NCBI GenBank assembly: GCA_009995365.1
Contig: JAACPR010000008.1
Span: 1-36,462, forward strand
Reading direction: 5' to 3'
Length of the DNA stretch: 36,462 nucleotides
Source: Candidatus Parcubacteria bacterium
Lineage (GTDB): Bacteria; Patescibacteriota; Minisyncoccia; Phycocordibacterales; JAACPR01
Shown: one piece after another, positions 5,094-32,968 of the stretch
Layout: the number at the start of each line of letters is the position of its first letter
How positions within the stretch are numbered: position 1 is the stretch's first letter
Notes under the pieces: generated by a model
What the model was told of the DNA's origin: nothing
The model's database searches: none
What the model saw: only the letters and a program-made list of their open reading frames with translations
Made by a program: the position numbers and the translations under genes

Positions 5094-6287
5094 ATGAATA
5101 TTTTGCAAATTAGCACTACAGATAATAAAGGCGGAGCAGCTGGGATTGCTTGGTCTATAAAGAAATATCTAGATAAAAATGGAATCAAAAATTCTATGTT
5201 TGTGAGAGATAAGTATTCAGATGAACAAAATGTCTTTAAAATACCAAATAAATTTTTAACTTTATCCAAGATATTTAAATATATACTCTCAAATGATATT
5301 GAACACAGTAACTCAGATTGGATCTTAAAAACAAAAGAATACAAAGAAGCGGATATTATTCATTGTCATAATTTACATGGTTACTACTTTAATTTAGAGA
5401 CTCTCTACAAAATGTCCTTGGAGAAAAAAATTGTGTGGACTTTTCATGATATGTGGCCTATTACAAGTCATTGTGCATACACTTTTGATAGTAGAGAAGT
5501 AAAAAACGGTTTCTTTACCTGTCCTTCCAGAAAAATCTATCCACCCATCTTATTTAATAACGACGAAAATTTAATCAAGAAAAAAGAAGCTATTTATAAT
5601 AAGGCAAATTTTCACATTGTCTGTCCGTCAAAATGGATTTTAAATTCTGTTGATAGGACGGTCCTAAAATATAAAGAAAAGACTCTGATTTATAATGGTA
5701 TAAATCTATCAGAATTTCAAAAATACAATAAAGAGGAATCAAGAAAAAAATTAGAGTTGCCATTGGATAAAAAAATAATTTTGTTTATTGCATCCGGAGG
5801 TAAAAAAAATCCATTTAAAGGGAGCGAGTTTGTTGATGAGTTAGCTTCTGAATATAAAGATAATTCAGAAATTATATTTTTAGTAGCTGGTTCTAATAAT
5901 AAAAAGAGAAAAACTAAAAATAATATATTGTTTATGCCTAAAATTAAAGAAAAAGAATTGTTGTCTCGGCTGTATTCTTCTGCAGATGTTTTACTAAATC
6001 CAACACTTGCTGATAATCTGCCCACAGTTATTCTAGAAGCATTTGCATGTGGGTTACCGGTGGTGACATTTAATACTGGCGGAACTCCAGAAATTGTTAA
6101 GCATTCAGTAAATGGCTATATTGCCAAATATAAAAACATAAAACAATTAAAAGGATATATAGATATTTTTATTAAAATTCCACAAGATGAATATAATCAA
6201 TTTTCTGAAAATGCACTTCGTAAATCTTTTGAATTTAATCAAGAAAAAATGTTTAAATCCTATATAAATTTGTATAATGAAATGTAA
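5094..6287 (+). CDS. Glycosyltransferase family 4 (GT-B fold)
   Basis: A 397-residue retaining-type GT-B glycosyltransferase. The N-terminal acceptor domain has the GGAAG loop (about 14-18), an HCHNLHGYYFNL block and WTFHDMWPITSHC, typical of GT4 enzymes that build surface glycans. The C-terminal donor domain has the E-x7-E region within VILEAFACGLPVV and GGTPEIV (about 311-340). It should transfer an NDP-sugar residue at the cytoplasmic face for cell-surface polysaccharide or glycolipid. It overlaps or abuts the next glycosyltransferase, so the two probably act on the same glycan. Sugar and acceptor are not predictable. Confidence 0.88.
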   Translation: MNILQISTTDNKGGAAGIAWSIKKYLDKNGIKNSMFVRDKYSDEQNVFKIPNKFLTLSKIFKYILSNDIEHSNSDWILKTKEYKEADIIHCHNLHGYYFNLETLYKMSLEKKIVWTFHDMWPITSHCAYTFDSREVKNGFFTCPSRKIYPPILFNNDENLIKKKEAIYNKANFHIVCPSKWILNSVDRTVLKYKEKTLIYNGINLSEFQKYNKEESRKKLELPLDKKIILFIASGGKKNPFKGSEFVDELASEYKDNSEIIFLVAGSNNKKRKTKNNILFMPKIKEKELLSRLYSSADVLLNPTLADNLPTVILEAFACGLPVVTFNTGGTPEIVKHSVNGYIAKYKNIKQLKGYIDIFIKIPQDEYNQFSENALRKSFEFNQEKMFKSYINLYNEM

Positions 6288-6288
6288 T

Positions 6289-7041
6289 ATGAAAATCTCT
6301 ATAATCACACCTACATATAATAGTGAAGATACTATAAAGGAAACACTCCAATCTATTTCAAATCAAACTTATCGAAATATTGAACATATAGTTGTGGATG
6401 GTTTATCTAGCGACAATACTTGTCAGATTCTAAAAGAAAAAAGCCCACAATCTATATTAATATCAGAAAAGGATGACGGTCTTTATTATGCTATGAATAA
6501 AGGTATCAAGAGAGCAACAGGAGATGTTATTTCAATTTTAAATTCAGATGATGTTTATTATGAAGATAGTGTGTTGGATGTGGTTTCTGAAGAATTTAAA
6601 AATGCAGATATCGATGTTTTGTATGGGCATATATTATTTTTTGGCTCAAATGATAAAACTAAGATAGTAAGAATATGGAAGACTGGCCCAATACGAAGGG
6701 CGCTTGTCTTTTTGGGTTGGATTATGCCACACCCGGCAGTTTTTCTAAGAAAAAGAGTATACGAAGAGATCGGCCTTTTTGATACATCATTTAAGAATTC
6801 AGCAGATTATGATTTTTTGTTGCGTATTATTAGACTTAAAAAATATAAGATTAAATTCTGCGATAATTTTTTTGTGAAAATGAGAACCGGCGGCACAAGT
6901 GATTTGACATTTATCGAAAAAATAAAGGAATGGTGGGTCTTGATTAAGATATTTAATAAAAATTATGGTATCTACCCTGTATGGTTTTTTGTAACCAGAC
7001 CTACAATCAAGATACTGCAATTTTTCAAAACAAAATTTTAA
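6289..7041 (+). CDS. Glycosyltransferase family 2 (GT-A fold)
   Basis: Inverting GT2 glycosyltransferase of about 250 residues. The N terminus MKISIITPTYNSEDTI is the classical GT2 start, followed by VDGLSSDNT and the metal/nucleotide motif NSDD. A further block, HPAVFLRKRVYE with NSADYDFLLRI, is common in small surface-glycan GT2s. An ATG 12 nt upstream (6277) is in frame but would overlap the previous gene and add four residues before the conserved start, so I chose 6289, one base after the previous stop. The C-terminal region is basic and aromatic. It works with the GT4 upstream; the sugar is unknown. Confidence 0.88.
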   Translation: MKISIITPTYNSEDTIKETLQSISNQTYRNIEHIVVDGLSSDNTCQILKEKSPQSILISEKDDGLYYAMNKGIKRATGDVISILNSDDVYYEDSVLDVVSEEFKNADIDVLYGHILFFGSNDKTKIVRIWKTGPIRRALVFLGWIMPHPAVFLRKRVYEEIGLFDTSFKNSADYDFLLRIIRLKKYKIKFCDNFFVKMRTGGTSDLTFIEKIKEWWVLIKIFNKNYGIYPVWFFVTRPTIKILQFFKTKF

Positions 7042-7072
7042 GTAAAGCTATAGTTTAGATTTACCTTATAAA

Positions 7073-7081
7073 TGATACAAT
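7073..7081 (+). promoter_or_regulatory. Extended -10 promoter of nuclease gene (leaderless type)
   Basis: TGa plus TACAAT (7076-7081), 8 nt before the ATG at 7090. Confidence 0.65.
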
Positions 7082-7089
7082 GAAAGAAT

Positions 7090-7863
7090 ATGAGTAATTT
7101 TTATAAACCACACAGACACATAAATTGGAATTATGGAGGTTCAAATTGGAGACTTAGTCGTTCTAAAATAGATTTATTTATTGAGTGCCCTCGTTGTTTT
7201 TATATTGATAATAAATTAGGCACCGCTAGACCAAAAGGTTTTCCGATGAATCTTAATACCGCTGTAGATACACTTCTCAAGAAAGAGTTTGATTTTTATC
7301 GTGCCAAAAAACAACCGCACCCATTGATGGAAAAATTCGATGTAGATGCGATTCCATTAGAACATTCAAAGATGGATGTTTGGAGAGATAATTTTAAAGG
7401 GGTTGATTTTTATCATGAACCTACCGGCATGACAATTTGTGGCGCAGTTGATGATCTGTGGGTCAACAAGAGGGGAGAAGTATATGTAGTCGATTACAAG
7501 TCTACTTCAAAAGAAGAAAAAGTTACTTTGGATGCTGATTGGCAGATTGGATATAAAAGACAGATGGAAATTTATCAATGGCTACTTCGCAAAAATGATT
7601 TTAATGTTTCTCCAATAGGATATTTTGTGTATGCAAATGGAAAAACTGATGTAGATGCCTTCAATGCAAAAATAGAATTTGATATAGATGTAATTCCTTA
7701 TGAGGAACAAGGGCTTTTTAATGAAGATATTTTGTTCAAGATTAAAGAGACATTAGATGGAAACGAACTTCCTCCTGCTGGGCATGATTGCGATTATTGC
7801 GCTCATTTTAACGCAAGGTCTAAAATTGATAATGAGAGTGAGCCTGTTATTGATATCAATTAG
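7090..7863 (+). CDS. PD-(D/E)XK nuclease family protein with four paired cysteines
   Basis: A 257-residue protein related to the RecB/Cas4-type PD-(D/E)XK nucleases. An N-terminal SRSKIDLFIECPRCFY block (residues 23-38) matches the family start. The catalytic region is VDDLW followed by VYVVDYKSTS (about residues 130-139), giving the D...D-x-K triad. Cysteines C33 and C36 near the N terminus and C234 and C237 near the C terminus (CDYC) are placed as in Cas4 and AddB, where four cysteines hold a 4Fe-4S cluster. There is no cas gene nearby, so I infer a free-standing DNA repair or processing nuclease. It has its own promoter. Confidence 0.8.
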   Translation: MSNFYKPHRHINWNYGGSNWRLSRSKIDLFIECPRCFYIDNKLGTARPKGFPMNLNTAVDTLLKKEFDFYRAKKQPHPLMEKFDVDAIPLEHSKMDVWRDNFKGVDFYHEPTGMTICGAVDDLWVNKRGEVYVVDYKSTSKEEKVTLDADWQIGYKRQMEIYQWLLRKNDFNVSPIGYFVYANGKTDVDAFNAKIEFDIDVIPYEEQGLFNEDILFKIKETLDGNELPPAGHDCDYCAHFNARSKIDNESEPVIDIN

Positions 7864-7934
7864 TATTTAGTATTTTTTAGGGCATTTGTGAAAAAGCTTG
7901 TGTAAGAAAAACTTTACATATAGAATATAAATAT

Positions 7935-7940
7935 TATAAT
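7935..7940 (+). promoter_or_regulatory. -10 element of zwf-gnd operon
   Basis: A perfect TATAAT in the 94-nt gap before zwf, 17 nt upstream of the ATG. It lacks the TGn extension seen at other genes here. Confidence 0.5.
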
Positions 7941-7957
7941 AGATTTAAATTTAAATT

Positions 7958-9436
7958 ATGAAAGAAAAACACCCAATTACATTCACTATTTTCGGAGCTA
8001 CAGGCGATCTAGCACAAAGCAAAATAATTCCTGCTTTAATGGATTTATACTGTAAAGATTTGCTTCCAGATAATTTTAAAGTGATTGGATTTTCTAGAAA
8101 AGACTTGTCCGATGAAAATTATCGAGAGTTTGCTCGAAATTCTATTAGGGGTGTAGAAACAGATCAGAATTCTAAAAAAGGGAATTTTTGCTATACAGAT
8201 GAAAAAGTAGAGGAATTTCTACTGAATTTTCATTATAAACAAGGAGACTTAAATAATTTAGAAAGTTATAAATCACTAAAGACTTATTTAAATGAAATAG
8301 ATGGTGACCTAAATGATTGTTCAAATAAAATTTTTTACCTAGCGGTCCCACCAAATCTTTATAATTCTTCTTTTGAAAATCTTTCTAAATCAGGATTGGG
8401 TGATGTATGTGTTATTGAAGGAGAAAAGAGGTGGAGCAGGATATTGGTTGAAAAGCCTTTTGGTTCAGATCAGAGCGAGGCAATAAAATTGGATAAAACT
8501 CTTGGTAAATTATTTAATGAAGAACAGATTTTTAGGATTGATCATTATTTAGCGAAAGAGACTGTTCAAAACATTTTATCTTTTAGATTCGCAAATGCCA
8601 TTTTTGAGCCGATTTGGAATAATAAATATGTTGATAAGGTAGAACTTAATATTTATGAAACTGAGGATGTCTCTGGGAGAGCTTCTTTCTATGATGGAAT
8701 TGGTGCGCTTCGTGATGTTGGGCAAAATCATTTACTACAGATGATGGCGTTGGTTGCGATGGAAGATCCGATGTCTTTAAAAACTGAAGCTATTCGGGAA
8801 GCGAGAGGAAATGTTTTTTCTAATATTAAAGTTGATAAAAAAGACTTAAAAGAATTTAAGCGCGCTCAATATGAAGGATATCTAGACAGTGATCAAGTAG
8901 ATTCGAATTCTAAAACAGAAACTTACTTTAAAATTAAATTAGGAGTCAAGAATAAGAGGTGGGATGGCGTTCCTTTTTATTTAGAGAGTGGTAAAGCATT
9001 AGAAAAAAAGAAAACTGAAATCAAAATAATTTTCAAAGATAAGGAAAGTTCAGTTTGTCCTGTCGATGGAATTTGTCATTATAATAATACACTTACGATA
9101 AATATTCAGCCGGAGAAAACGATTTCAATCTGTTTTTGGACAAAAAAACCTGGATTGCAAATGGAGCTAGAAGAGAAAAAATTATCATTTGATTTTGATG
9201 AGAATCCGCTAGGGGTTAGTGATGCTTATGAAAAAGTTTTATATGATTGCATCAAGGGTGATCAGTCATTGTTTGCTAGCACTTATGAGATTGCTACACA
9301 ATGGGGAATTATTTCGGAAATTTTTAAATTATGGAAGAACATTCCGTTGGAGAAATATCCAAAGGGAAGTTCAGTCGACAAAATTTCAGGCGAGAAAGAT
9401 AATAAGAGCGGCGAAGATTTATTAGATAACAAATAA
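7958..9436 (+). CDS. zwf: Glucose-6-phosphate 1-dehydrogenase
   Basis: Zwf oxidises glucose-6-phosphate to 6-phosphogluconolactone with NAD(P)+, entering the oxidative pentose phosphate route. At 492 residues it is full length. Diagnostic motifs are the nucleotide-binding GATGDLAQSKI near the N terminus, VEKPFGSD, and the substrate/catalytic RIDHYLAKETVQN block. The fourth position after GATGDL is normally basic or alanine, so the dinucleotide preference is not obvious. gnd starts 4 nt after its stop. Products feed the phosphoketolase encoded at 18840-21197. No 6-phosphogluconolactonase gene is visible here; hydrolysis could be spontaneous or encoded elsewhere. Confidence 0.95.
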   Translation: MKEKHPITFTIFGATGDLAQSKIIPALMDLYCKDLLPDNFKVIGFSRKDLSDENYREFARNSIRGVETDQNSKKGNFCYTDEKVEEFLLNFHYKQGDLNNLESYKSLKTYLNEIDGDLNDCSNKIFYLAVPPNLYNSSFENLSKSGLGDVCVIEGEKRWSRILVEKPFGSDQSEAIKLDKTLGKLFNEEQIFRIDHYLAKETVQNILSFRFANAIFEPIWNNKYVDKVELNIYETEDVSGRASFYDGIGALRDVGQNHLLQMMALVAMEDPMSLKTEAIREARGNVFSNIKVDKKDLKEFKRAQYEGYLDSDQVDSNSKTETYFKIKLGVKNKRWDGVPFYLESGKALEKKKTEIKIIFKDKESSVCPVDGICHYNNTLTINIQPEKTISICFWTKKPGLQMELEEKKLSFDFDENPLGVSDAYEKVLYDCIKGDQSLFASTYEIATQWGIISEIFKLWKNIPLEKYPKGSSVDKISGEKDNKSGEDLLDNK

Positions 9437-26256: not shown

Positions 26257-26285
26257 TGGACTTTTTATCTTTGGAGGACTATAAT
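26257..26285 (+). promoter_or_regulatory. Promoter of the cobalamin-controlled operon
   Basis: TGGACT (26257-26262; 4 of 6 matches to TTGACA), a 17-bp spacer and perfect TATAAT (26280-26285). The start of transcription would be near 26292, just before the first strand of riboswitch helix P1. Confidence 0.6.
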
Positions 26286-26293
26286 TAAAAATA

Positions 26294-26486
26294 GTTACTT
26301 ATCTGTCCTAAATATTTGGATGGAAAATACAATAAAAATTGTATTTAGGAAGTAAGGTGAAAATCCTTCGCTGTGCCGCAACGGTAATACTTTTAACTAA
26401 GTTAAGCCCGATCTTTAAGTAATGTTTAATTTCCGAGCAGAAACATTAATATAAGTGTATTGAACTTCTGCTCAAACCAGGAGATT
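26294..26486 (+). promoter_or_regulatory. Cobalamin riboswitch with SD-sequestering expression platform
   Basis: The B12 aptamer core is recognisable: AGGAAGTAAGGTGAAAATCC (26347-26366), then GCTGTGCCGCAACGGTAA (26371-26388) and AAGCCCGATC (26404-26413), matching the E. coli btuB leader order. Outer helix P1 can form from GTTACTTA (26294-26301) and TAAGTAAT (26416-26423, one G-U). Downstream, AATTTCC plus GAGCAGAA (26428-26442) can pair with TTCTGCTC (26466-26473) and GGAGATT (26480-26486), burying the Shine-Dalgarno AGGAG (26479-26483). An alternative hairpin TAATGTTT/AAACATTA (26420-26427/26441-26448) overlaps both P1 and this stem. I infer translational repression when cobalamin is bound. 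The aptamer call is firm; the switching model is inference. Confidence 0.9.
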
Positions 26487-26491
26487 TTTTT

Positions 26492-27052
26492 ATGTCAAAA
26501 TTAAATCAATCTAAAAAAATAGCTCTATTTTTCGCCCTTTTAGGTGTTGTCTTTATTTTTTTAAGTTATGTCAAAATTTCTTCACACAAAGATGAATCCT
26601 TGCCAGAATCTAATGGTAAGACTGTATACGAAGAAATTTATGAAGAAATAAAGGAGGATAAGGAGGTCGAAGATAAAATAGATAAAGAAACAGATCTTGA
26701 AAATGATTCAGAAGTAAAAGAAGAAATTAAAAGTTATTATGAAGTAGCAGGGGATAATAATTTTACCCTTGTAGTTGATGGCGACAATTTCCCAGCTTTA
26801 TTTGATGAGGGTGATTCGATATATGAAGCAATGTCAAAAATGAAAGACTTTGGTTTAATTTCTTTTGAAGAAAAAAGTTTCTCTGGTTTGGGTGTTTATA
26901 TTTATTCAATAAATAATATTTCTGAAAATAAGAGGGAAGGGAAATATTGGATTTATTATGTAAACGATGTTCAAGCAAATGTTGGTGTTTCTAATTATTA
27001 CCTTGATGAAGGTGATGAGATTAGATGGCAATTAGAAACTAACACTTATTAA
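26492..27052 (+). CDS. Membrane-anchored DUF4430 (transcobalamin beta-domain-like) protein
   Basis: A 186-residue protein with an N-terminal TM anchor (about 9-27), a K/E/D-rich stalk (about 31-85) and a DUF4430 domain (about 90-183). The domain shows FDEGDSIYEAM, SGLGVYIYSINN, the conserved aromatic block YWIYYVNDVQANVGVSNY (W143) and LDEGDEIRW (W179). DUF4430 is the fold family of the C-terminal beta domain of animal intrinsic factor and transcobalamin. Being first in an operon behind a cobalamin riboswitch, it most likely binds corrinoid outside the membrane. It has a strong AGGAG 8 nt before the ATG, unlike most genes here. Confidence 0.85.
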   Translation: MSKLNQSKKIALFFALLGVVFIFLSYVKISSHKDESLPESNGKTVYEEIYEEIKEDKEVEDKIDKETDLENDSEVKEEIKSYYEVAGDNNFTLVVDGDNFPALFDEGDSIYEAMSKMKDFGLISFEEKSFSGLGVYIYSINNISENKREGKYWIYYVNDVQANVGVSNYYLDEGDEIRWQLETNTY

Positions 27053-27053
27053 A

Positions 27054-29330
27054 ATGAAAAAAACGATTTTTATAATTTTATTATTGATTTTGGCTAGTCC
27101 TAATTTTTCCTTGGCGCAGGAGGCGACTTCGACAGCGACTACTACTGAAGAAGTAGAAAAAAAAGAAGATAACCAAGAAGAAAATCAAGAAGAGGAAGAT
27201 TATGCGGAAGAAGAATCAGAAGAAGATGTTCAATCTGCCACATCAACAGAAGATACAGCAACTTCTACCAAAGATCGTAGCGACAGTGAGAATAACGATA
27301 ATGATGAAGGTGATGCTGAAAAAGTTGAACTTTTTATAAAAAACGGGTCACAAGTTATTTTTTCAGGAGCATTAGAAATTAGTGATGATGAAATCCAGAT
27401 AATTGATACTGATTCTGTAGAACATGATATTGAAAAAAATAATGTTCTAGGTATTTTAGCTGAAGCTGATTCTAAAAATGATAATTTTGAAATTACAGAC
27501 ATAGCCTATTATTCATCTTTCAACTCTTTTATAATCGAGTGTCTAAAAATCGATTCAGAAAAACTTTGTGATAATTGGCAATATGTTGCTAATGATGAAT
27601 ATTCTAATGTTGGGGTTGATGCTAAAAAATTAAAAGATAGAGATGTAGTTTATTTTTATTTTGGTCAACCAAGGAAACTTGTCTTGCCAGATGAGGCAGT
27701 TCAAGATGTGGAATTTATAATTAAAGGAGAAGAATATAATTATCAGGATAATACTTGGGGTAAATTATCTGGTTATACAGTAGGAGTTTTTTCAGATGAC
27801 CCAGATGATCCTTGGTCACAAGATGTAATATCAACTGCCGAATTAATTGACGGCGAAGCTTCTTTTATAATTGAAGAATCTGGTAATTATAAAACTGGGA
27901 TAGAAGAAGATTATTATTATCCATTTTACGAGATTGAAATTTTAGCAACAAGCTCGACATCTACTTCAACCTCAACTGATGATTCAGAGATTGAAGACTC
28001 AGGCGGTGGATCGAATAATGGTAGTTCTGGCAATAATTCCGGTGGTTCGGGTAATGGCTCTGGTAATAATTCCATTAATGTTTTGTTTGATATAGAAACG
28101 GCCGTCGGCTTTTTGTTATCTGTTCAAAATGAGGACGGGGGATTCAATGCTAATTTGTATACCGATTGGGCTGTAATTGGTTTGGCTTCAGTGAATGAAA
28201 TAAATAATTCTCTAAAAGATAGTGTAAAAAATTCTTCTGTCAGTTCTGATTTGTATGATAAATTACGAAAAGCTATGGCACTCATGGCTCTCGATTTGGA
28301 TCCACAAGAGGATTACACAGAAAATCTTCTCGAAGAAATTCTATCCGAATTTGACGGTCAGCAATTTGGCGATCCATACTACTTCAATGATGATATTTTT
28401 GCTTTGATTGTTTTACAAAATTTTGGTTTTGATGAAGGTGACGAAGAAGTTTCAAAGACAATTGATTTTATTATTAGTAAACAGTCAGGTAGTGGCTCTT
28501 GGGAAGGGATTGATTTAACAGCAGCGGCTATACAGGCTTTGGTTGAATTTGATGATTATGACGAAGTTTCGAGTGCTGTATCAAAAGCAGAAAATTTTAT
28601 AAAAAATAGACAAAATCCTAATGGTGGTTGGTCAAATGTATATTCAACAGCATGGGCCATGATGGCAATGTCCGCCTTGAGTCATGACTTTGATGACTGG
28701 AGAGGTAATCCGCTGGAATATTTAGGAGAACTACAAAATGAAGATGGTGGACTTTTAAAAAATGATTCAGAAAATAACCGAATTTGGTCTACTTCTTACA
28801 GTATTGCTTCTGCATCTGGTAAAACTTGGATTGAAATATTGAACGATTTTTCTGTTAAAAACCGATCAGATAATAATGGTTCAGCGGAATCATCATCGCC
28901 AACCAGATCGTTATCTACATCCGAATCGGCTGATTCACCAGATGGAGATTTGGTTACTTCTAACACCAATTCACCAGATGCAGGTGATTCTGGAGCAAGT
29001 GAAAGATTTATTGAAAATTTAGATGAAATACTGGCATTTTTAGACCAACAGGAATTAGCTTTTAATCAGGATGAAATAGTGGCAGGTGTTGAAGAGAGTT
29101 ATGTCGAAGGCGATATTGAAAATAGTGATGGGGTTGAAATTATTCAAACTAACGAAGAAATAAGAAATCAAATATCTAACAATCGAGATAATAACCAAGA
29201 AGATCAAGAAGGTGATGATGCTTCACAAATAGCCGCTGTCTCAAATGCGTTGGATTTCAGTTGGTGGGTATATTTCTTATCCGCAATCGTAGCTTTATCA
29301 ATTTCTGTTATAATGTTTAAAATAAAATAA
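27054..29330 (+). CDS. Surface transcobalamin-like protein: DUF4430-like domain plus alpha/alpha toroid, C-terminal TM anchor
   Basis: A 758-residue exported protein starting one base after the previous stop. Order of parts: signal peptide (1-21); acidic spacer (22-90); DUF4430-like domain (about 90-205) with two cysteines (C163, C172) and a CDNWQYVAN block; a second beta domain (about 206-298); an S/T/G/N-rich linker (299-341); an alpha/alpha-toroid domain (about 342-610) with repeated QNEDGGF, GSGSWEG, QNPNGGWSN and QNEDGGLL turns; another acidic linker; and a TM helix (about 733-755) ending KIK. Intrinsic factor and transcobalamin pair the same two domain types in the opposite order. Under B12 riboswitch control, I infer surface cobalamin capture. 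Remote homology could mislead on ligand. Confidence 0.8.
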   Translation: MKKTIFIILLLILASPNFSLAQEATSTATTTEEVEKKEDNQEENQEEEDYAEEESEEDVQSATSTEDTATSTKDRSDSENNDNDEGDAEKVELFIKNGSQVIFSGALEISDDEIQIIDTDSVEHDIEKNNVLGILAEADSKNDNFEITDIAYYSSFNSFIIECLKIDSEKLCDNWQYVANDEYSNVGVDAKKLKDRDVVYFYFGQPRKLVLPDEAVQDVEFIIKGEEYNYQDNTWGKLSGYTVGVFSDDPDDPWSQDVISTAELIDGEASFIIEESGNYKTGIEEDYYYPFYEIEILATSSTSTSTSTDDSEIEDSGGGSNNGSSGNNSGGSGNGSGNNSINVLFDIETAVGFLLSVQNEDGGFNANLYTDWAVIGLASVNEINNSLKDSVKNSSVSSDLYDKLRKAMALMALDLDPQEDYTENLLEEILSEFDGQQFGDPYYFNDDIFALIVLQNFGFDEGDEEVSKTIDFIISKQSGSGSWEGIDLTAAAIQALVEFDDYDEVSSAVSKAENFIKNRQNPNGGWSNVYSTAWAMMAMSALSHDFDDWRGNPLEYLGELQNEDGGLLKNDSENNRIWSTSYSIASASGKTWIEILNDFSVKNRSDNNGSAESSSPTRSLSTSESADSPDGDLVTSNTNSPDAGDSGASERFIENLDEILAFLDQQELAFNQDEIVAGVEESYVEGDIENSDGVEIIQTNEEIRNQISNNRDNNQEDQEGDDASQIAAVSNALDFSWWVYFLSAIVALSISVIMFKIK

Positions 29331-29332
29331 TT

Positions 29333-29926
29333 ATGGAAAGAAAAATGACAACAAAAAATAAAATATTAATAGCTTTGGCATTGGTGGCACTGGCTGTTGT
29401 AACTAGGTTCATGCCACACCTTTGGAATTTTACAGCACTGACTGCAGTTGCTCTGTTTGCTGGTAACTACTTGGGTCCTAGATATGCAGTAGGTGTAGTT
29501 TTCTCTGCTATGGTTCTATCTGATTTTTTTATTGGATTCTATGATTGGAAATTAATGCTCATTGTTTATGGATCATTTGCTATGGTTGGATTTATTCCAT
29601 CTTTGATTGGTAGGGTTGGTCGTGGTAAAAATCAAAACAAAAAGCAAAATCTATATTCAAATACTACAAAAGTTTTCGGCATGTCTCTTTTAGGTTCAAT
29701 TTTGTTTTTCTTGGTTACAAACTGGGCGGTTTGGTTTTTTGGGGCTATGTATCCTGCCGATTTTTCAGGCTTGGTAAGTTCTTATGTAGCCGGCCTACCA
29801 TTTTTCCGGAACGCTATCCTGGGTGATTTATGGTATACAGGAGTCTTTTTCGGAGTTTATGAGTATTCGCTTTATTTAAAAGAAAAATGGGCTTTAAACA
29901 GAAAGATAGTTAAGGTAAACAATTAA
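29333..29926 (+). CDS. DUF6580 / ECF S-component-like membrane protein, candidate cobalamin permease
   Basis: A 197-residue integral membrane protein with about five or six TM helices. The N-terminal TRFMPHLWNFTALTAVALFAG (about residues 25-45) closely resembles the R-x-x-P-H-x-x-N-F-T block of DUF6580 putative transport proteins, which look like ECF-transporter substrate-binding (S) subunits. Third gene of the B12-riboswitch operon (2-nt gap), so cobalamin is its likely cargo. No ECF ATPase or EcfT gene is in the window; it may use a shared energising module encoded elsewhere or act alone as proposed for BtuM, though it has no cysteine for BtuM-type cobalt ligation. In-frame ATG choices at 29333 and 29345 are both possible. 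Confidence 0.8.
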   Translation: MERKMTTKNKILIALALVALAVVTRFMPHLWNFTALTAVALFAGNYLGPRYAVGVVFSAMVLSDFFIGFYDWKLMLIVYGSFAMVGFIPSLIGRVGRGKNQNKKQNLYSNTTKVFGMSLLGSILFFLVTNWAVWFFGAMYPADFSGLVSSYVAGLPFFRNAILGDLWYTGVFFGVYEYSLYLKEKWALNRKIVKVNN

Positions 29927-29984
29927 ATTTACTCAATTAAATTCGATTTAGGTAAATAGAAAAGAAAATCAAAAACAAAAAAAG

Positions 29985-30024
29985 AAAAAACGGTGAACTT
30001 GTAAAACAAGTCCACCGTTGTCTT
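29985..30024. terminator. Bidirectional intrinsic terminator of the cobalamin operon and convergent gene
   Basis: Stem 29989-30002 with 30006-30019 (AACGGTG-a-ACTTGT against ACAAGT-c-CACCGTT, one A/C mismatch). Read on the minus strand it is followed by a long T-rich run (29988-29975), on the plus strand by TCTTTT. It ends both the operon and the 30041-31360 gene. Confidence 0.85.
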
Positions 30025-30040
30025 TTGGTATTACCGAAAC

Positions 30041-31360
30041 CTAATAAATCTCAATAATCCTAAAGAAGTTTTTGCTTCCTTCTACCTGCTGGTCCAAGAT
30101 ACCGGCGCCTGATTTCCATTTGAACGGATACCAATTCTCGAGGTCCTGACTCTTTTGAACTTGAATCAAATCATTAGAATCAGCTCCTTCAAACCAAAGC
30201 CTCACATTCCATTTGTTGCTATTTTCGTCTGGCGAAATGTTGTCGACGGAAAGAAGTTGCTGATTAGAGTGGTTAATTTCCTTCGGTTTTTTGTAGAGGA
30301 TTTTCTCCTCCGTCACAAGGCCGGTCGTACCGTTAGAATATTTGAAAGGTATTTCAATTAAAAAACGAATACGGACTTTCCCATCGAGTAGCCAATTCTG
30401 AGCGTTATCAACTTTTACATATTCCGGAGGGTTATTTTGACCCTGCAATGTTATAGGTAAAAAGGTTACACCAGAAGAGCTAAAGATAAAGGACTGACTT
30501 TGAATTGAATTGTCAGAAATTTCCTCGTCGTCTTCTGTTCCTGGGGCTTCATCCTCGCCGTTTGAAAAAGATTGGGAAATTACACCCTGAGTGGTGGAAT
30601 CAGCTGTTTCTGAGCGAAATTCAATCCATTCTTGATTGTTGTGATCCCATCTCTCTGTGGAGATAGTCATACTGATATCCTCAGGAACAAAGGTTGAACC
30701 GAGATTTGCTTTGATCCACACTATTTCGTGCCAACTGTGACCTTTCTCATATGGATAAGCATTATCTTCGTCAAGAAACTTATTTTTCCAATATGGATTA
30801 ATTTCAGTTCCTAAAACGCCGAGATATTCATCAAGAGTGTATTCGATTTTCACTTCATCATTTGAAACAGAATCGAGGACAAACTTAACAACATCTCCCT
30901 GATTGATTACTTCCTCACTAGCTCCTTTGTTAGTCTCTTGATCGTTAACTAAAATAGACCAATAGACATTCTCTTCGGGGATATTTTCAATGCCATTTAT
31001 GGATTCAATAAAGAAACCTAATCCATCAAATTCTTTACCGGAAAAGCTAAAATCTCCTGTATCAGATTTAGAATCCATTAAATCCAATATGGTGCTACCG
31101 TCTATGATATCAGAAGTCAATTCTATGACTTCACCCGAATTATCGTATGTCGTTAAATTATTTTTAACGGCATGGACGACATTATTAGAATAATCTTCCC
31201 AAGAAATACTTGAGAAATTAGAGTCGTTGCGTGGTCCAGAAGAACCGCCAATCCAATCTATATCGATAGGTGAAGCTTCTGATCTTGGCCCGTGGGCAAA
31301 AAGCAATACAACTGTGGTGATGATCACCAACATAGGTAGTTTTTTAAAGAACTTTTTCAT
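30041..31360 (-). CDS. Secreted DUF4430-domain multi-domain protein
   Basis: A 439-residue exported protein with a signal peptide (about 1-29), a DUF4430 domain (about 83-163) showing DGSTILDLMDS, FDGLGFFIESINGI, YWSILVNDQETNKGAS (W134) and INQGDVVKFVL, then a long beta-rich region (about 165-370) and a C-terminal beta-sandwich-like domain with WYPFKWKSGAG and FFRIIEIY. No C-terminal anchor is evident, so it may be released or bound to the wall or to a partner. It is convergent with the cobalamin operon and has no B12 aptamer in its 129-nt upstream gap. I infer a related corrinoid- or ligand-binding role, less surely than for the riboswitch operon proteins. Confidence 0.75.
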   Translation of the reverse strand: MKKFFKKLPMLVIITTVVLLFAHGPRSEASPIDIDWIGGSSGPRNDSNFSSISWEDYSNNVVHAVKNNLTTYDNSGEVIELTSDIIDGSTILDLMDSKSDTGDFSFSGKEFDGLGFFIESINGIENIPEENVYWSILVNDQETNKGASEEVINQGDVVKFVLDSVSNDEVKIEYTLDEYLGVLGTEINPYWKNKFLDEDNAYPYEKGHSWHEIVWIKANLGSTFVPEDISMTISTERWDHNNQEWIEFRSETADSTTQGVISQSFSNGEDEAPGTEDDEEISDNSIQSQSFIFSSSGVTFLPITLQGQNNPPEYVKVDNAQNWLLDGKVRIRFLIEIPFKYSNGTTGLVTEEKILYKKPKEINHSNQQLLSVDNISPDENSNKWNVRLWFEGADSNDLIQVQKSQDLENWYPFKWKSGAGILDQQVEGSKNFFRIIEIY

Positions 31361-31489: not shown

Positions 31490-32968
31490 ATGCATAAAAT
31501 AAATTACAACAGAGTAAGACTTTTAAATAAAAATAAAATCAAAGATTATGAATTTCCTATAGGTAGTTCAATTGCTGGGCCGGTCATATATTGGATGAAT
31601 AGGGAAATAAGAACGCGAGATAATTGGTCTTTAATTTTTGCCCAAAATTTAGCTGAAAAAAATAATCAATCACTATTAGTTGTTTATAATTTAATTCCAG
31701 GATTTTTAGGAGGACAAAATCGTCATTTAACTTTCAAAATTGGTGGCTTGAAAGATGTTGAAAAAGATTTAGCACAAAAAAATATTCCATTTGAAATAGT
31801 CGTCGATAAAAAAGGACAAGACGAAGAAAAAACAGAAAGTGCAAAGTTGATTTTAAATTATTGCAAAAAAAACAAAGTGGGCGCTTTGGTAACAGATTTC
31901 TATCCTTTGAATATTTCAAAAAAATGGGTTAATGAAATTTCTGGCAGTATAGAAGTTCCTTTTTTTGAAGTTGATTCTCATAATATTGTCCCCGCATGGA
32001 TTACTTCTAATAAAAAAGAATATGCAGCTTATACAATTCGACCGAAAATTCATAAAAATTTAAAAGAATATCTAGATAATTTCCCAAAGATTAAAAAACA
32101 GGACGAGACTTTTCTGAAAGATATTGAGAGCAAAATAGAAAAAAATGATTGGGATAAACTTTTGCCAAAAAAAACTGCAGAAGAAATGGATTGGATAAAG
32201 CCTGGTCAAAATCAGGCAGAAAAGATGCTTAAAAATTTTATAAAAAATAAATTAAAAAATTATGCGCTAGATCGAAATGACCCAAACAAAGACAACCAGT
32301 CAAATCTTTCTCCTTATTTGCATTACGGAATGATTTCATCACAAAGAGTTGCGCAAGATGTCGTAGGTTGGGCTAATCAATCAATCGAAAAAATAATTGA
32401 TGAAAAGAAAAATAAGGCAAAAGTTGATTTAGGTGTGGAACCAACAAAAACCACCAATGCCGGCGCCTTTTTAGAAGAGTTAATAGTTCGAAAAGAGCTT
32501 TCTGATAACTTCTGTTTATACGAAGAAAATTATGATAATCACAATGGTTTTCCTGATTGGGCTAAAAAGACCCTGAGAAGATCAGCAACTGATAAAAGGG
32601 AGTATGTTTATACAAAAACAGAATTTGAAAATTCAAAAACGCATGATGACCTCTGGAATGCTGCACAATTAGAGATGGTTAAGAGAGGAAAGATGGACGG
32701 CTACCTTAGAATGTATTGGGCAAAAAAGATTTTAGAATGGACCAATACTTCGCAATACGCTCAAGAGGTAGCAATTTATTTAAATGACAAGTATGAGCTG
32801 GATGGGCGCGATCCAAATGGCTATTCTGGTATTGCTTGGTCTATTGGAGGCGTGCATGATCGTCCATGGTTTGATAGACCAATTTTTGGGCAGATTCGTT
32901 ATATGGCACGCTCTGGGTGTGAGAAAAAATTCAATACGAAAGAATATATTAAAAAGTGGATAAGTTAA
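31490..32968 (+). CDS. phrB: Class II CPD photolyase
   Basis: A 492-residue deoxyribodipyrimidine photolyase. The N-terminal alpha/beta domain has GPVIYWMNREIRTRDNW and IPGFLGGQNRHLTFKIGGL, characteristic of class II rather than class I enzymes; the FAD domain has LSPYLHYGMIS, a WNAAQLEM block and LDGRDPNGYSGIAWSIGG with DRPIFGQIRYM. It repairs UV-induced cyclobutane pyrimidine dimers using reduced FAD and blue light. All main blocks are present. It implies that the organism meets sunlight. It is a single gene with its own leaderless-type promoter, followed by the RimK-like gene 57 nt on. Confidence 0.93.
   Translation: MHKINYNRVRLLNKNKIKDYEFPIGSSIAGPVIYWMNREIRTRDNWSLIFAQNLAEKNNQSLLVVYNLIPGFLGGQNRHLTFKIGGLKDVEKDLAQKNIPFEIVVDKKGQDEEKTESAKLILNYCKKNKVGALVTDFYPLNISKKWVNEISGSIEVPFFEVDSHNIVPAWITSNKKEYAAYTIRPKIHKNLKEYLDNFPKIKKQDETFLKDIESKIEKNDWDKLLPKKTAEEMDWIKPGQNQAEKMLKNFIKNKLKNYALDRNDPNKDNQSNLSPYLHYGMISSQRVAQDVVGWANQSIEKIIDEKKNKAKVDLGVEPTKTTNAGAFLEELIVRKELSDNFCLYEENYDNHNGFPDWAKKTLRRSATDKREYVYTKTEFENSKTHDDLWNAAQLEMVKRGKMDGYLRMYWAKKILEWTNTSQYAQEVAIYLNDKYELDGRDPNGYSGIAWSIGGVHDRPWFDRPIFGQIRYMARSGCEKKFNTKEYIKKWIS

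Follow-up and report, generated by a model that had tools for sequence, protein, structure and literature searches.

The stretch of DNA analysed here (the window; 36,462 nucleotides) is one whole contig (C20) of the draft genome G000, which belongs to a patescibacterium of the Parcubacteria group (758 kb, 95.9% complete; since the genome is a draft, absences from it are provisional). Positions 26319-29926 hold a riboswitch and, behind it, three plus-strand genes separated by 1 and 2 nt. Judged from its sequence, this locus is very probably an operon for the capture and uptake of corrinoid (vitamin B12), controlled by an adenosylcobalamin (AdoCbl) riboswitch. The first gene product, P0001 (26492-27052, +; 186 aa), is predicted to be a membrane-anchored protein with a lone DUF4430, or transcobalamin-beta-like, domain. 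P0002 (27054-29330, +; 758 aa) is a predicted secreted, C-terminally membrane-anchored protein composed of beta domains, a Ser/Gly linker and an alpha/alpha toroid, and P0003 (29333-29926, +; 197 aa) is a DUF6580 membrane protein, a putative B12 transporter resembling the S-components of energy-coupling factor (ECF) transporters. A re-annotation from scratch agrees with the original prediction, which had described three genes 1-2 nt apart, one for a DUF4430 protein with an anchor, one for a surface protein that combines DUF4430-like and toroid domains, and one for a DUF6580 protein. Its proposal of a B12 scavenging operon with capture at the cell surface is supported by the riboswitch, domain and linkage evidence given below, while the hand-off of the corrinoid to the S-component is a step that we infer.

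Riboswitch, client enzyme and conservation of the locus

The AdoCbl riboswitch aptamer (RF01482; 26319-26476, +) was detected over the full length of the model (positions 1-149) with 56.3 bits, where the gathering score is 50. The whole window was searched with 4227 Rfam families, which gives this match an E of 6.7e-8, and it ends 15 nt before P0001. This match over the cut-off upholds the cobalamin aptamer put forward in the original prediction. Upstream lies a sigma-70-like promoter, TGGACT-17-TATAAT (26257-26285, +), which matches 10/12 positions by consensus only and carries no evidence of function; the start of the locus had earlier been placed at 26257, coincident with this promoter-like match. 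The likely expression platform spans 26435-26483 (+), where the last aptamer hairpin directly abuts the Shine-Dalgarno sequence AGGAG (26479-26483). Inspection of this region indicates that CTTCTG is able to pair either with GAGCAGAA or with CAGGAG; an alternative hairpin is present, and the minimum free energy fold has a z value of -3.2. With the ribosome-binding site placed right against the aptamer in this way, translational OFF control by the riboswitch appears plausible.

The original prediction had also supposed that a B12-dependent ribonucleotide reductase might be encoded elsewhere in the genome. A class II reductase was indeed located at G000:C18:35115-37364 (789 aa, 1307 bits with a profile built from the reductases of five relatives), and a PduO-type corrinoid adenosyltransferase, over the cut-off, at G000:C3:244-744. 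The reductase contains an ATP cone and the B12-dependent ribonucleotide reductase insertion domain PF21995 (over cut-off); its best NCBIfam match is TIGR02505, AdoCbl-dependent ribonucleoside-triphosphate reductase (E 4.5e-88), whose 296 bits lie below the cut-off of 340. The profile from the relatives overturned the view that G000 has no client enzyme, which had followed from a search with PF02867 that found no ribonucleotide reductase. That negative was false, since reductases of this kind score poorly with the Pfam barrel model on its own. A Pfam search of G000 for the B12-binding domain PF02310 found none.

Of the 97 genomes of the order, 12 carry DUF4430; nine of these twelve also carry DUF6580, which is found in none of the others. 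DUF4430 is present in 9/9 DUF6580 genomes versus 3/88 others (Fisher 1.5e-10), and the class II reductase in 12/12 DUF4430 genomes versus 62/97 overall (p 0.003); common descent of the genomes makes both p-values indicative only. Scanning 84,980 species genomes returned 465 DUF6580 relatives, the best 80 of which were examined; nearly all of these come from Patescibacteria, many of the loci are cut by contig ends, and one tally includes the window as an 81st locus. Within 6 kb of DUF6580, DUF4430 or toroid genes are found in 68/80 loci and a class II reductase and/or corrinoid adenosyltransferase in 24/80. The more distant reductase neighbours are AdoCbl-dependent NrdJ according to NCBIfam.

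At the gathering threshold, no riboswitch was found in longer stretches around the DUF6580 matches, flanks of 1.5 kb being too short to show any. Whole-genome searches with the cobalamin models placed AdoCbl switches in 21/40 operon-bearing genomes at E 0.1, six of them over the gathering score. Eighteen of these 21 matches lie at the start of the operon and on the correct strand, and the other three elsewhere, on the assumption that the contig numbered in the search is the contig of the locus. In fourteen of the eighteen, the first gene follows at a distance of 25 to 160 nt; the remaining four are overlapped by a called open reading frame, most simply one called from an early start codon. It is very unlikely that the eighteen agreements arose by chance.

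Several related loci provide further observations. In L041 (genome G005), a weak cobalamin riboswitch match (5797-5933; 17.4 bits, E 0.009) immediately precedes the class I NrdB and NrdA genes (6004-9004), an arrangement resembling known switches between B12-dependent and B12-independent reductases. Loci L035 (6502-9019) and L044 (5167-8392) show a riboswitch match, weak in L044, ahead of a DUF4430 gene and a toroid gene, with no adjoining DUF6580, and would represent a capture pair without an S-component alongside. A further weak riboswitch match, in L040 (2980-4171; genome G093), lies beside an open reading frame whose start resembles CbiB/CobD by eye, hinting at partial corrinoid salvage. 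Class II reductases adjoining the operon in L066 (2033-5596), L078 (3637-7554) and L110 (5811-9446) are enlarged to 1187-1305 aa, and for the enlarged reductase of L066 Pfam identifies an intein with LAGLIDADG domains. Metagenome-assembled genomes of Bdellovibrionales and Bacteroidales (L102, L108, L119) carry DUF6580 with no DUF4430 nearby.

Closely similar gene sets occur in Bacillota, and the set is therefore not peculiar to the patescibacterial lineage. In Enterococcus raffinosus, an AdoCbl-switch match (41 bits, below the cut-off of 50) is followed by DUF4430 and then by a CbrT homologue (4.2e-29), in parallel to the window operon. In Latilactobacillus curvatus (CP117684.1), an LPXTG protein, DUF4430, EcfT, an ATPase and an S-component are encoded in a row. 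The LPXTG protein was found through its similarity to the toroid protein (tblastn 3e-6); Pfam calls no toroid in it, and an Rfam search of the locus gives no cobalamin riboswitch. This locus shares with the window operon a toroid-family-like surface protein, DUF4430 and an S-component, but it has its own ECF module, whereas EcfT was not detected for the window operon. The original prediction knew of no characterised version in the lineage. Given the similar sets with a CbrT homologue or an ECF module in Bacillota, the operon of the window looks like a patescibacterial, apparently ECF-less form of a B12 uptake set of Gram-positive type that is more widely distributed. The BtuG and BtuH proteins of Bacteroides differ from the operon proteins in belonging to other protein families and in serving outer-membrane transport. 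Both are surface lipoproteins that capture B12 ahead of a membrane transporter (PMC6143338, PMC8941943), as is proposed for the operon.

Exported proteins and membrane component

By inspection, P0001 has an N-terminal membrane anchor, and its DUF4430 domain covers residues 113-182 (Pfam E 5.4e-16). When the family is searched against the PDB as a profile of 28 sequences, haptocorrin (4e-6) and intrinsic factor (7e-6) are the only significant matches, transcobalamin-2 (TC-beta) being weaker at 0.008 and above. The comparison of the family with transcobalamin by hhalign gives a probability of 96.4% (E 1e-9), the transcobalamin sequence used having been verified against 2BB5. These matches to haptocorrin, intrinsic factor and transcobalamin confirm the earlier claim that DUF4430 is akin to the beta domain of the animal carriers. 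Isolated human TC-beta binds cobalamin, and the assembly of TC-alpha with TC-beta is cobalamin-dependent (PMC5599065); a lone anchored beta domain such as that of P0001 thus has a precedent. The animal carriers and the operon have in common the DUF4430-type beta domain, with detectable sequence homology, and an alpha/alpha toroid. The carriers are, however, one soluble chain, whereas the operon encodes two membrane-anchored bacterial proteins, and some relatives of the operon encode a fused protein with the toroid followed by DUF4430.

Inspection of P0002 reveals a signal peptide and a C-terminal membrane helix. Its N-terminal part comprises one DUF4430-like beta domain, recognised as a partial DUF4430 match over the cut-off (residues 168-204, Pfam 5.6e-6), and a second beta domain. 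The AlphaFold (AF2) model of residues 86-605, with a mean predicted local distance difference test score (pLDDT) of 87.5, shows the beta domains together with a toroid built from some twelve helices. The toroid (28080-28853, +) corresponds to residues about 343-600, its helices occupying positions 262-510 of the modelled part. Residues D447, T489 and W534 are invariant among 40 homologues. The top Pfam match of the toroid is SQHop_cyclase_C (4.7e-12, over cut-off), and a fold search retrieves terpene cyclases first, followed by complement TED domains, transcobalamin and intrinsic factor. Alignment of the toroid family with transcobalamin by hhalign yields a local match of low probability (2.6%), so no residue-level claim is made, and the modelled toroid is transcobalamin-like at the fold level only. 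In five homologues (L046, L049, L050, L066, L089) the toroid and DUF4430 are fused in the order of transcobalamin, which is opposite to that of P0002.

P0003 matches Pfam DUF6580 with E 4.7e-43, and its weak matches to ECF S-components include the riboflavin S-component family. A DUF6580 profile of 43 sequences has a single PDB match, CbrT in entry 6FNP (2.3e-5), the structure of ECF-CbrT, a vitamin B12 ECF transporter of Lactobacillus delbrueckii (PMC5997447). The family profile was needed for this result: P0003 as a single sequence retrieved nothing useful from the PDB, and CbrT was not among its matches. The AlphaFold model of P0003 (pLDDT 90.5) shows the six-helix S-component fold, and its best PDB fold match is BtuM with cyanocobalamin (TM 0.61/0.66), followed by RibU and ThiT, at a modest Foldseek E (0.055) and a probability of 1.00.

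A search for EcfT with PF02361 gave zero matches in the 97 genomes of the order, G000 included, and nothing over the cut-off in 43 genomes, mostly operon-bearing, in comparison to detection in 10/14 control genomes. A FecCD (BtuC-type) permease was not found in G000 either, and such permeases occur in only a few of the 97 genomes. Since neither EcfT nor a BtuC-type permease was found, P0003 appears to be a solitary S-component, and no candidate for B12 import other than the operon is recognised in G000. The ECF-S-like membrane protein of the original prediction has kept its S-component relationship to CbrT and BtuM, whereas no EcfT to go with it was detected. With ECF-CbrT, P0003 shares the S-component fold and a sequence similarity detectable at the level of DUF6580; it differs in its family, in the lack of a detected EcfT in its genome, in the extra toroid surface protein and in its patescibacterial lineage. 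BtuM of Thiobacillus denitrificans, a solitary B12 transporter, works without an ECF module and occurs without EcfT (PMC6072759). It has in common with P0003 an S-component-like fold and an occurrence without EcfT, but it uses Cys80 for cobalt ligation and decyanation, whereas P0003 contains zero cysteines.

Weighing of the proposed mechanism

In the mechanism proposed here, the transcript would be translated when intracellular AdoCbl is low, a direction assumed by analogy with uptake genes that this riboswitch controls elsewhere. Scavenged corrinoid would be caught outside the membrane by P0001 and P0002, which would probably enclose it between them in the manner of the two domains, alpha and beta, of transcobalamin. 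P0003, a relative of CbrT and BtuM with the six helices of an S-component and the DUF6580 domain, would then receive the corrinoid and carry it into the cell, apparently with no ECF module involved. Inside the cell, the PduO-type adenosyltransferase would make AdoCbl for the class II ribonucleotide reductase (NrdJ). Binding, hand-off, transport direction and energetics are what we infer for the operon proteins. In its most specific form, a split, membrane-anchored transcobalamin (the beta domain of P0001 and the toroid of P0002, with cobalamin-dependent closure) that loads a solitary, ECF-free DUF6580 importer, the mechanism is tentative, possible rather than probable.

A number of observations weigh against it. 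Solitary CbrT without its ECF module does not transport (PMC5997447), and no cysteine is present in 20/43 DUF6580 sequences, so that the essential cysteine of BtuM is not conserved; as a consequence, ECF-free transport by DUF6580 is without direct mechanistic precedent here. The P0002 toroid matches terpene cyclases best by both sequence profile and fold, and its match to Cobalamin_bind (PF01122; E 0.0035, 16.8 bits) remains below the cut-off of 25. Regarding the transcobalamin-type toroid of the original prediction, the model does match the fold of intrinsic factor and transcobalamin, but terpene cyclases and TED domains are at least as similar. Furthermore, 50 of the 62 class II reductase genomes of the order lack DUF4430, which indicates that B12 users do not all carry the operon, and 19/40 operon-bearing genomes show no riboswitch match at threshold.

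The energetics of P0003 could be explained differently if it were driven by an unrecognised, highly diverged ECF module instead of working alone. The dependence of CbrT on its module (PMC5997447) favours such an arrangement, as do the EcfT and ATPase genes that Latilactobacillus carries beside a similar gene set and the fact that the absence of EcfT is based on one profile and draft genomes. Nevertheless, the lack of EcfT in the 97 genomes and, over the cut-off, in the 43, set against 10/14 positive controls, makes this somewhat unlikely. The AxxxA segment in the first transmembrane segment of CbrT (ALLTA), which we take to have a role in the contact with EcfT, also occurs in only 4/43 of the corresponding DUF6580 segments. 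As for the substrate, P0003 might carry a corrinoid precursor (cobinamide or a different one) in place of cobalamin, or else dimethylbenzimidazole, or a vitamin of another kind, for example riboflavin. This would be in line with the weak similarity of P0003 to the riboflavin S-component family, with the additional transport of cobinamide by ECF-CbrT (PMC5997447) and with the ability of cobalamin riboswitches to respond to several corrinoids (PMC9600662). Taking into account that CbrT is the sole PDB sequence match and BtuM the best fold match, and that the genes are linked to the class II reductase and the adenosyltransferase, such a substrate is improbable, and cobinamide salvage would still make the operon a corrinoid uptake system.

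Two other explanations concern P0002. The operon may serve B12 uptake with the corrinoid handled by P0001 and P0003 only, P0002 being a general surface protein (an adhesin, a TED-like or a cell-wall protein). The ranking of terpene cyclases and TED domains ahead of the similar transcobalamin and intrinsic factor agrees with this, and about half of the DUF6580 loci show no toroid gene nearby. We consider it rather unlikely in view of the roughly 30 loci whose toroid gene is flanked by DUF4430 and DUF6580, the several loci where it comes straight after the riboswitch, the five homologues with toroid-DUF4430 fusions in transcobalamin order, and the related LPXTG protein encoded beside DUF4430 and the ECF module in Latilactobacillus. 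The top rank of SQHop_cyclase_C could, alternatively, reflect an active class II terpene cyclase, with the operon making a surface lipid. This is highly improbable and was rejected, as the catalytic DxDD motif is not conserved, being present in only 2/40 homologues; P0002 is, moreover, predicted to be exported and fused to beta domains, and a cyclase would leave the riboswitch and the reductase linkage without explanation.

Neighbouring features and implications

The convergent gene P0005 (30041-31360, -), left out of the original prediction, encodes a further secreted DUF4430 protein (Pfam DUF4430 2.1e-11) that is a possible accessory corrinoid-binding protein; the Rfam search of the whole window shows no riboswitch of its own. 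All three DUF4430 domains of G000, according to a whole-genome search, fall inside one 5 kb segment formed by the operon and P0005. Between the operon and P0005 lies a strong terminator-like hairpin of 14 pairs (29989-30019). The Rfam matches RefA9 (25-85) and L20_leader (29979-30093) are weak, under the cut-off and resemble terminator hairpins, and were discarded. Adjoining the locus, positions 31490-32968 (+) encode a protein whose N-terminal part matches a DNA photolyase domain (1.4e-23). A plasmid search using P0003 gave zero matches.

In the literature search, no paper naming DUF6580 was retrieved, and the six papers naming DUF4430 do not deal with bacterial B12 uptake in title or abstract. 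The operon suggests a likely substrate and function for these two families of unknown function, for DUF4430 in the context of the operon, and connects the beta domain of the human B12 carriers, at the sequence level, with surface proteins of bacteria. Within the order, an AdoCbl-dependent reductase is present in 62/97 genomes, yet EcfT in 0/97 and FecCD in few, and the operon offers a testable answer for part of these genomes. It also constitutes a test case for B12 import by an S-component without an ECF module. If the split-transcobalamin mechanism is true, it would represent a mode of B12 uptake common to many Patescibacteria, with a beta domain that has its homologue in the B12 carriers of animals.

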